64,000 nt of DNA from Antennarius striatus (Eukaryota; Chordata; Actinopteri; Lophiiformes; Antennariidae): positions 1,071,501 to 1,135,500 of the forward strand of contig NC_090788.1 of the NCBI RefSeq assembly GCF_040054535.1. The letters are read 5' to 3'. Below are positions 52,915-64,000 of the stretch, in pieces; within the stretch, counting starts at the first letter, position 1, and every line of letters starts with the position of its first letter. The notes beneath the pieces are model-generated. The model made no database searches. It was not told where the DNA came from and was given only the letters and a program-made list of their open reading frames with translations. Position numbers and translations under genes: made by a program.

Positions 52915-53253
52915 CTGATAGCTCCACCCACTTCATCACCTGATTCCGATCACCTGCCAATTCAAACGCTGCTCATCAGCAGTCAAACCAAGTCTTTGCT
53001 TTATTGTTCTTCACCCGTCAATACCAGACTTTCCAGCATTCACCTCCAGACTGATCTGTTGTCGTCTTCTCCTGATCCTGACCTTCCTTACCTGCTGGTT
53101 CCTGTTCCCCTGAAGGACTAGAGAAGTCTTTACCAGTTGTTCCGTTTGGATCCCACCGTCCCGTTACAGTATGTTCACACATACTTGGACAACAAGCTGA
53201 CTGGAAATGAAGTTATAGAGAGTGTGTTCTTGTTCCAGGTTGGTGGTCTGAAC

Positions 53254-55268
53254 ATGTGTCTGTTGGCAGTTATGTGGAGGGTGGTAACTTTGGTTGCCTT
53301 GGTTACCCTCATCATGACCAGTGGTAAGTCCAGGAGTTGATCAGCCAGTGTTCAAACAGCTGTTAAACATGATTAATTTCTGATTTTTCTGTGTCTCTTT
53401 AGTCCAAAGCCGACCCCCTCCCCATGCGTGAGTATTTTACTGTCAGAATAAATGTCAGGGTTGAGGAGACCAAAACTCTCATGAGGAAACATGAGGAAAT
53501 TTCAAACATTAGTTTCAGGTCATGTCCACACGTAGCCGGGTATTTTCCAACACATAAACGCTCCATGTTGACACTTGAATATTTGTTCTTCTGTTTTTTT
53601 CCTTATTGGAGTCATAAAGACGTGTCCTCAGTCGGGGGTCATCAACCCGCGGCTCTGGAGCCACATGTGGCTCCTTCATCCTTACGCGGTGGCTCCGTGT
53701 AGCATAAGGGGGGGGGGGTAAATATCCAATTGAAATCTGTTAAATTTGGGTTTGTTCATTTTCTGTTGTAATTTTAAATTGGAAAATTATTGTGATCATA
53801 AAACATTAAAATAAAATTAGATTAATTTTTTTTCATTGCTCAAAATATGCATCGCATTGGCTGAAAACTGGTAGGAGCAGAATTCCCATGAACCAGGGAA
53901 AATAAACATGTATGCAAATGATTTTTAAATATTTATTTTCATTGTTCAGTGAAATAGAACTTTGTCTTCTATTTATTTTTGAAATAAATTGAAATAAAGT
54001 GACCTGAATAAACTGTATTTTTTGTTTTCTACGTGGATAATTTGTTCTTTTGAAGTCATTTGACTTCAACTTGGTGTGTTTGCAGTTATTATGTTAAGAA
54101 AATCCAAATGTGTTCATTACTTAAATAAGTTTTAATTTTCTCTGGAGCGCTTCATGGATGTCATCAGCAACACACTATAGTTGTTTATACTAAATGTTAA
54201 ATTAAAACACACTATACACAGCCCCCCCCCCCCCAGTGTTGTTGCTCTCCACCCCCCCATCAGCCCAACTCCGTTCACCTGTCTCCACAGCTGCAGCTCA
54301 TCCTAATCAGACCTACATATCAGCCCCTCCTGCAGGCTCAGCCTTTGTCTCGTCGCTGGAGACTCGTCCTCCTCTCCACTTCCTGCTCTTGGTTTATTTC
54401 TCTGTTCTGTTCACTTCAGAGCTCAAAACGTTTCCCAGTGTTTTCTCTTCTGATCCAAGCGGCTCTCTGAGTGTTGATGGCTGCCTCATCCCTGATTTAA
54501 GTGTTCTGACTCCAGGACAGAAAATCACATTTCAGACTGAAGCATTTTATTCTTAAAACTGATTTCAGAGACAAGAACGTAATAATTAGAAACTGATCAA
54601 TAAATGAAACTGAAATCTTCAGTTTTTACATCCTATAAGTCGCGTAATGAAGTTGAAGCAGTTTCTATTTCTGACATGTGTTGAAGAAGTTATGTTACAA
54701 TTATTAAACTTCAGATAAAACATCAGTGAAGACAGAAGATGAACAAAAAGAACTTGTGAAACAGCAGAAGCAGAGCTGAGCAAATATGAAGCAGAGCAAG
54801 TTTCAGATACTGAGTTCATGTTTACTCTGATCTCAACAAATTGTTTGAACATTTTACGTTCTGATCGAAATACATGACTGAGGAATTCATGAAGGGCTTG
54901 TAAAATGTAAAAATAATACATCTGAGCGTCTTTTAAAGTGTATTTTTTTATTTGAATTGAATAGATGGAAGTCTTCCACCAGTATTGACTACTATGGAGG
55001 CTTCTTGAATGGTGTCAGTCAAGGTCAGAGTGGAGACTTAGATGGAGGTGGCATTGGAAGTGGAAGAGGAGGAGGAGGAGGAGGAAGAAGAGGAGGAGGT
55101 GGAGGAGGACATGGAGGAGGAGGAGGTGGAGGAGGTGGATATGGAGGAGGAAGTGGATATAGAAGAAGAGGTGGAGGAGGAGGTGGATTTGGAGGAGGAG
55201 GAGGAGGAAGAAGAGGAAGAGGAGGAGGAAGAAGAGGAGGAGGAGGTGGAGGTGGAGGCCGGTCCTGA
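53254..55268 (+). CDS. Predicted secreted Gly/Arg-rich protein, array copy 1 (unrecognised family)
   Basis: Three exons join in phase: 53254-53323, 53403-53427 (25 nt) and 54965-55268, giving 132 aa. Exon 1 encodes a classic signal peptide: MCLLAVMWRVVTLVALVTL then IMTS. Exon 2 adds VQSRPPPHA. Exon 3 starts WKSSTSIDYYGGFLNGVSQG and ends in about 75 residues of poly-Gly with Arg, Tyr, His and Phe, coded mostly by GGA triplets. Splice sites are GTAAGT...TTTAG and GTGAGT...AATAG. AATAAA lies at 55418. The exon 1 frame is open further upstream, but an acceptor-like TTGTTCCAG sits 15 nt before this ATG. The product could be a structural or antimicrobial secreted peptide; I cannot name a family. 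Evidence is the shared splice phase in all three copies and the signal peptide. Confidence 0.55.
53630..53720. mobile_element. hAT-like terminal fragment in intron 2 (copy 1)
   Basis: GGGGTCATCAACCCGCGGCT followed by CTGGAGCCACATGTGGCTCC resembles the CAGGGGTCxxCAACC / GGAGCC-xx-TGTGGCTC ends common to vertebrate hAT-type non-autonomous elements. It recurs at 57626-57715 and, eroded, at 61842-61880, so the insertion predates the triplication. The family is inferred by eye. Confidence 0.4.
54237..54306 (+). other. Candidate alternative terminal exon, copy 1
   Basis: After a pyrimidine tract and CCAG, one base plus 22 codons and TAA are open in the phase left by the 25-nt exon. It encodes a tail ending SPTPFTCLHSCSSS. 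Copies 2 and 3 keep the acceptor, the phase and the stop. AATAAA at 54599 could serve it. Confidence 0.35.
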
Positions 55269-55417
55269 GACCTCTGAGCTACTGGTTGGCCCCACAGGAG
55301 GTGACGGTGTCATGGAGACATTTTTCACCATCATGACACCCTGTTGGTCTTTGTTCCTCAAACTTCCTCTCAGACTGCTCTGGTGCTCTGATTGGTAGTT
55401 TCTCTTGGTACAAGATG

Positions 55418-55423
55418 AATAAA
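55418..55423 (+). terminator. Poly(A) signal, array copy 1
   Basis: AATAAA 150 bp after the stop; the same site is found in all three copies. Confidence 0.6.
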
Positions 55424-63539: not shown

Positions 63540-63670
63540 GGCCATAATAGAAGTGGAGGTGGAAGCAGCTCCTGAGACCGATGAGCTGCTGGATCGTTCA
63601 GCATCATCATTCAAACTTCATCTCAGACTGCTCTGGTGCTCTGACTTGTAGTTCCTCTTGGTAGAAGATG

Positions 63671-63676
63671 AATAAA
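63671..63676 (+). terminator. Poly(A) signal, array copy 3
   Basis: AATAAA 132 bp after the stop. Confidence 0.6.
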
Positions 63677-64000
63677 TAGCATTCAAAAGACCGTTGGACT
63701 CTTGTCATCCATTAACTACCAATAGATGGTTTCCTCTATTAATTTCCACCACATGAAAAACTGGAACAACAACAAAGAACAGACATCAAGGAGTTAATGA
63801 AATGATCTCTAAAGAACTCTGAGAGCTTCTGGACTTCATCTCTGATGACGCTGGTCTGGATGGAGGTTTCTCCACAGAAGAAAGCAGCACATTGATCCCA
63901 TTGGGTCAGAGATTCATCATTGTATATTATTATATTCCCCAAAAGTCCGTCTCTGTCTTTAATCTGTTATGCACCAGAAGGTTTCCATATTCTATCACTT

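Follow-up and report, generated by a model that had tools for sequence, protein, structure and literature searches.

The window (the whole 64-kb stretch of Antennarius striatus DNA that was analysed) holds a tandem array of three adjoining copies of a small candidate gene for a putatively secreted Gly/Arg-rich peptide. On balance, we favour the interpretation that these copies form an orphan array of genes for secreted, basic, disordered peptides rich in Gly and Arg, which have been mixed by unequal crossing-over or gene conversion. If expressed, the array would constitute a compact orphan secreted-peptide family, in which recent duplicates, a diverged mosaic copy and a cargo altered through its repeats are found within about 11 kb, and would provide a case from an anglerfish relative; if it is not expressed, the region would be an ordinary duplicated relic. 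A first-pass annotation had proposed a tandem array with a signal-peptide-like start and conserved exon phases, all of which were borne out by the sequence. Every junction that it named was exact, and its exons, phases, splice sites, poly(A) signals and peptides were all recovered. Its description of three units was right for two complete units, the third being cut by the end of the window. The predicted features, which can be read directly from the DNA as exon anatomy, are as follows.

53254-53323, + strand: copy 1 coding exon 1, resembling a signal peptide and ending in phase 1
53403-53427, + strand: copy 1 exon 2, a 25-nt micro-exon, phase 2 at its end
54965-55268, + strand: copy 1 coding exon 3, including the stop, for the Gly/Arg-rich cargo
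55062-55258, + strand: GGA-type trinucleotide tract in copy 1 exon 3
55418-55423, + strand: AATAAA 3' of copy 1
57245-57314, + strand: copy 2 coding exon 1
57394-57418, + strand: copy 2 exon 2
59071-59377, + strand: copy 2 coding exon 3 with stop
59168-59367, + strand: GGA-type trinucleotide tract in copy 2 exon 3
59527-59532, + strand: AATAAA 3' of copy 2
61464-61533, + strand: copy 3 coding exon 1
61652-61676, + strand: copy 3 exon 2, identical to that of copy 1 at 18 of 25 nt
63413-63539, + strand: copy 3 coding exon 3, ending in a TAA stop, for the Arg/Gly/Tyr cargo with two Cys
63573-63575, + strand: TGA of copy 3, homologous to and in frame with the stops of copies 1 and 2
63671-63676, + strand: AATAAA 3' of copy 3

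In all three copies, coding exon 1 is 70 nt long and exon 2 is 25 nt long, with phases 1 and 2, and the predicted precursors have 132 (copy 1), 133 (copy 2) and 73 (copy 3) residues. The exon 1 donor reads GTG/GTAAGT in each copy, and the exon 2 donor reads TGC/GTGAGT in copies 1 and 2 and TGA/GTGAGT in copy 3. The acceptor 5' of exon 2 is TTTAG or TTCAG, and that 5' of exon 3 is ATAG in copies 1 and 2 and a weaker AAAG in copy 3; all the introns keep GT-AG ends, even in the diverged copy 3. Poly(A) signals (AATAAA or ATTAAA) were found at 55418 and 55485 for copy 1, at 59527 and 59594 for copy 2, and at 63671 for copy 3. Copy 3 already stops at a TAA 12 codons before the TGA shared with the other copies, with 11 codons between the two. 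Measured to the homologous TGA, exon 3 has 304, 307 and 163 nt in copies 1, 2 and 3, respectively, with an equal remainder by three; the difference between copies 1 and 3 (141 nt) is a multiple of three, for which the chance is 1 in 3. A tblastn search with copies 1 and 3 revealed no further copies in the 64-kb window at E <= 1.

We searched for a combined pattern in which a signal-peptide-like ORF is followed by a consensus donor and a short intron, and a pyrimidine-rich acceptor then leads into a micro-exon with a consensus donor of its own. It occurred three times on the + strand (once per copy), never on the - strand and never in 40 dinucleotide shuffles of the + strand. This pattern was defined after the gene had been seen and the copies share one origin, so the count is supportive and does not amount to a p-value. 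The signal-peptide part, called by a hydropathy rule rather than by SignalP, is a weaker sign of a gene when taken alone: the + strand contains 13 signal-peptide-like ATGs, six in the array and seven elsewhere, with a mean of 0.4 in the shuffles.

No frame other than the Gly frame runs unbroken across exon 3 in both copy 1 and copy 2. Where GGA has changed within the tracts, AGA (Arg) prevails over GAA (Glu) by 11:0 in copy 1 and 9:1 in copy 2; when runs are collapsed, the ratios are 6:0 and 7:1 (p = 0.03 and 0.07), the two copies not being independent. This asymmetry speaks mildly for a role of the Gly frame, although slippage can multiply single events. Assuming cleavage after residue 26, a site taken from a rule of thumb, the predicted mature parts of copies 1 and 2 have about 106–107 residues, with 54–56% Gly, and that of copy 3 has 47 residues, with 26% Gly and two Cys. 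Their predicted pI values range from 10.0 to 11.8 and their net charges from +5 to +11, with 0, 1 and 2 Cys. The cargo of copies 1 and 2 includes YGGFL (approximately 54991-55005 and 59097-59111), the Leu-enkephalin sequence; the flanking basic pairs of opioid precursors are absent, and its occurrence here is probably due to chance.

The units are clearly homologous. Units 1 and 2 are 96.6–98.2% identical in the main blastn pieces and, in 60-column windows, mostly 97–100% identical, with a few windows at 92–95% and values of 73–93% over the Gly tract. Copy 3, by contrast with its own high-identity tracts, has a diverged and gapped core and is thus a mosaic: its intron 1 and most of its intron 2 are diverged and gapped, with 1046 of 1233 aligned positions identical to copy 1 and 807 gap columns in intron 2. 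The tracts concerned are listed below.

61222-61545: upstream DNA and exon 1 of copy 3; from about 61245 on, its identity with units 1 and 2 is about 97–100%
62660-62834: 175-nt patch in copy 3 intron 2 that matches the copy 2 unit at 98%, the flanking intron being diverged
63610-64000: DNA 3' of copy 3, truncated by the end of the window; its identity with units 1 and 2 is about 93%
59646-60448: two tandem copies of a 409-bp stretch 3' of copy 2

The first 196 nt of the second copy of the 409-bp stretch match 63788-63982, 3' of copy 3, at 93.9% identity, and this duplication is possibly the scar of an exchange between units. The mosaic identity of copy 3 and the 409-bp duplication together indicate exchange between units, the mechanism of which we infer to be crossing-over or conversion. 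Exon 1 lies within a recently exchanged or copied tract, and further such tracts may be present in intron 2 and 3' of exon 3. The 175-nt patch of intron 2 is 98–99% identical in all three units (54230-54404, 58335-58509 and 62660-62834), and a conversion tract, a conserved element and a piece of a mobile element are all candidates for it. Unit 2 differs from unit 1 by an insertion of about 114 nt (57990-58110), and inverted-repeat arms lie at 57990-58020. An origin of the array from a Gly-rich exon near 50 kb was considered and rejected, as the units had no blastn match there; the sole blastn match outside the array was that of 62121-62196 to 48367-48441 (73%).

The first-pass annotation had also described a stable leader with a variable cargo, and had read this as the usual pattern of secreted defence, venom-like or reproductive clusters. 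The cargo does differ strongly between copies. However, exon 1 of copies 1 and 3 is identical at 69 of 70 positions (98.6%) and the preceding 220 nt are identical at 218 positions (99.1%; Fisher p = 0.56), so conservation of the leader exon does not exceed that of the adjoining upstream DNA and a constraint on the signal peptide is unsupported. Selection on the cargo is unsupported as well. The leader is therefore stable because the whole tract has been exchanged or copied, and the comparison is silent on selection for the signal peptide; the functional reading drawn from the contrast loses its basis, the leader being like its flank. Since a constant leader and a variable cargo can arise from whole-tract exchange, such a pattern calls for a look at the identity of the flanking DNA before it is read as selection or defence. 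The upstream DNA was taken to be non-coding because a 45-residue frame running into the ATG, open in copies 1 and 2, meets a stop in copy 3; this frame was set aside, and its only Pfam match was a sub-threshold one to a poxvirus polymerase subunit (E = 0.17). A scan of this upstream part for bacterial-type promoters yielded nothing useful.

The family was previously noted as unrecognised, and our searches agree, with no credible relative in Pfam, NCBIfam, the PDB or a set of 5.8 billion proteins. In this protein set, residues 1–66 of copy 1 gave four candidates, none at E <= 1, and the whole of copy 3 gave one candidate, likewise not at E <= 1; these two were the queries, rather than copy 2. 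Candidates had to share five-residue words with the query and to be 0.55–1.75 times its length (about 73–231 and 40–128 aa), so that a much longer annotated model would be missed. Within these length limits, no Antennarius striatus annotation model matched copies 1 and 3. Pfam had no family for copies 1 and 2, and the matches of copy 3 to YxzE (E = 0.0085, 17.5 bits with a cut-off of 40) and to DUF6560 (E = 0.17, below the cut-off) were dismissed as effects of composition. NCBIfam gave no match for copy 3 or an extended copy 1 piece, and the PDB gave none for the latter. Three collections in which fish genes are not expected were likewise negative: viral contigs (copy 3; 36 pattern matches, 0 confirmed), prokaryote contigs (65-aa piece of copy 2; 362 matched, 0 confirmed) and phage records (copy 3 unit; none). 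We found no description of this peptide family in the literature searched. The protein set includes Antennarius striatus (GPR119) and many other fish proteins, and the lack of a match therefore suggests that the array is either a lineage-restricted gene that is missing from the annotation or modelled differently in it, or no gene. Small spliced genes are often missed by annotation. The available part of the striated frogfish genome paper reports that bulk RNA-seq data from 13 tissues were deposited (PRJNA1078610), with gonad and esca not among them (PMC11192929).

The array was compared with known systems. Mature cathelicidins are rich in Gly and Arg in some fish. According to the part of the source available for Atlantic cod, fish cathelicidins resemble the array in having a small secreted precursor, paralogues and a variable peptide on the last exon, and they are encoded by four exons and contain a cathelin-like domain as well as four Cys that form two disulfides (PMC4451034). 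In contrast, the array has three coding exons, no cathelin-like domain in Pfam and no Cys between leader and cargo, with 0, 1 and 2 Cys in the mature parts. The repeat of antifreeze glycoproteins is Thr-Ala-Ala, and the Gly/Arg-rich cargo of the array contains no repeat of this type. The antifreeze glycoproteins of codfish are similar to the array in their secreted low-complexity repeat cargo; in the section of the source consulted, they are tripeptide-repeat, ice-binding polyproteins whose repeats grow by slippage and unequal crossing-over and which have spread as a gene family (PMC8622921). By these features, the array belongs neither to the cathelicidins nor to the antifreeze glycoproteins. 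The secreted glycine-rich proteins of tick cement also combine a signal peptide with a Gly-rich disordered cargo, as far as the portions available of the two sources go (PMC11794139, PMC2901319), and the likeness of the array to them is one of composition only: Gly makes up 54–56% of the predicted mature part in the first two copies but 26% in copy 3, and the signal peptide is a putative one, called by the hydropathy rule.

Under the favoured interpretation of an orphan array, splicing in each copy would join the exon for the signal peptide to the 25-nt micro-exon and this to the cargo exon, and each copy, if transcribed and translated, would yield a secreted, basic and probably disordered Gly/Arg-rich polypeptide. 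Unequal crossing-over or gene conversion between units would keep the upstream DNA, the leader and the 3' end alike, and the GGN-repeat cargo would be altered by slippage and indels. The likeliest action, as the composition suggests, would be extracellular and non-catalytic, as a component of mucus, matrix or adhesive or as a polycation binding membranes or microbes. This interpretation is favoured by the exon lengths, phases and consensus splice sites in the three copies and by the combined pattern, albeit defined post hoc, as well as by the Gly frame, the AGA/GAA bias, the remainder of exon 3, the mosaic identity, the 409-bp duplication and the basic composition. Several observations count against it, among them the earlier stop and the weaker last acceptor of copy 3. 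The main rival is that the region is a relic, either non-functional or non-coding: a stretch duplicated in tandem that was once a gene or is now at most a long non-coding RNA. We consider such a relic possible but somewhat improbable. Its exon-like sequences would persist as the units are recent (copies 1 and 2) or homogenised (exon 1 of copy 3), and the leader conserved no better than the preceding DNA, the early stop of copy 3, and the lack of a matching annotated protein in the protein set are consistent with it. In their mature parts, copies 1 and 3 are also no more alike than shuffles, the score being reached in 349 of 2000, and the mismatches in exon 3 between these copies lack an excess at third codon positions. 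Phase agreement over the whole of exon 3 looked strong, but multiples of three are favoured by the period of the GGA repeat in any case, and in the non-repeat part the agreement varied with the settings from 20/44 to 46/46 columns, overlapping that of the intron windows (0.41–1.0). The GGA repeat is open in several frames by virtue of its composition; yet the Gly frame alone is open in both copies 1 and 2, and this argues against a relic, as do the AGA/GAA asymmetry of the GGA tracts and the retention of GT-AG intron ends, exon lengths and phases in the diverged copy 3.

It is quite unlikely that the array is a secreted defence, venom-like or reproductive cluster, in which a fixed leader would accompany a cargo under diversifying selection imposed by targets such as microbes. 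The predicted mature peptides are basic and Gly/Arg-rich, as this reading would have it, and exon 2 provides a hint, and only a hint, of a diversifying cargo: between copies 1 and 3, 7 of 25 nt are changed, against 6 of 79 in intron 1 (p = 0.013), and all five complete codons that differ alter the amino acid. However, the difference from intron 2 is less clear (187/1233, p = 0.09), exon 3 has no codon-position pattern, the leader is not specially conserved, slippage explains the differences between the repeat tracts of copies 1 and 2, and neither Pfam nor NCBIfam revealed a relative in any defence or toxin family. Taken together, the cargo comparisons neither prove nor exclude a coding, diversifying cargo. 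A further observation at odds with the simple orphan array is that skipping of exon 2 would give copy 3 a second open frame across exon 3. The join of exon 1 to exon 3 then gives 102 codons before a stop, and the stretch stays open in only 97 of 5000 mononucleotide shuffles, so that a second, acidic secreted product using the other frame of exon 3 might be imagined. We regard this as very improbable, since in copies 1 and 2 the corresponding join runs into a stop after 37 codons, and since the part that overlaps the Gly frame is also open in 4275 of 5000 codon-order shuffles and in 2021 of 5000 random synonymous versions, as expected from the codon make-up. A further proposal, itself unlikely, is that the array belongs to a frogfish-restricted family in which recombination repeatedly copies a cassette of upstream DNA and leader onto cargo exons remade by trinucleotide slippage; if this were true, a vertebrate orphan family would have been caught in the act of making new secreted peptides, in a manner similar to the antifreeze genes of cod but with a Gly/Arg product.

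Other features of the window were also recorded. An intergenic part of the units (about 56323-56928, - strand) has a LINE-like look, a resemblance for which Pfam and the PDB gave no match. An ORF at 32938-33591 (- strand) was 100% identical over 68% of the query to the Antennarius striatus glucose-dependent insulinotropic receptor (GPR119), in a search that gave 166 significant proteins among 821 candidates, with many fish among the best 120 of the 166. The GPR119 gene spans 32087-33591 (- strand), the rest of the 371-aa protein agreeing by eye with the ORF at 32087-32779; by this match, the window very probably comes from the striated frogfish or from a species very close to it. Two tRNA-Val genes lie 5' of the array, at 51649-51721 and 52079-52151 (anticodons CAC and AAC), within a three-copy repeat, the middle copy of which (51873-52018, 64% identical) was not called as a tRNA. 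Exon-like ORFs with Pfam matches correspond to a mitochondrial carrier protein (40249-40533, + strand) and a RhoGAP-domain protein (18380-18877, - strand). Two long minisatellites, at 11457-11965 (12-bp unit, 42 copies) and 23291-23837 (12/33/57-bp array), are open in several frames.
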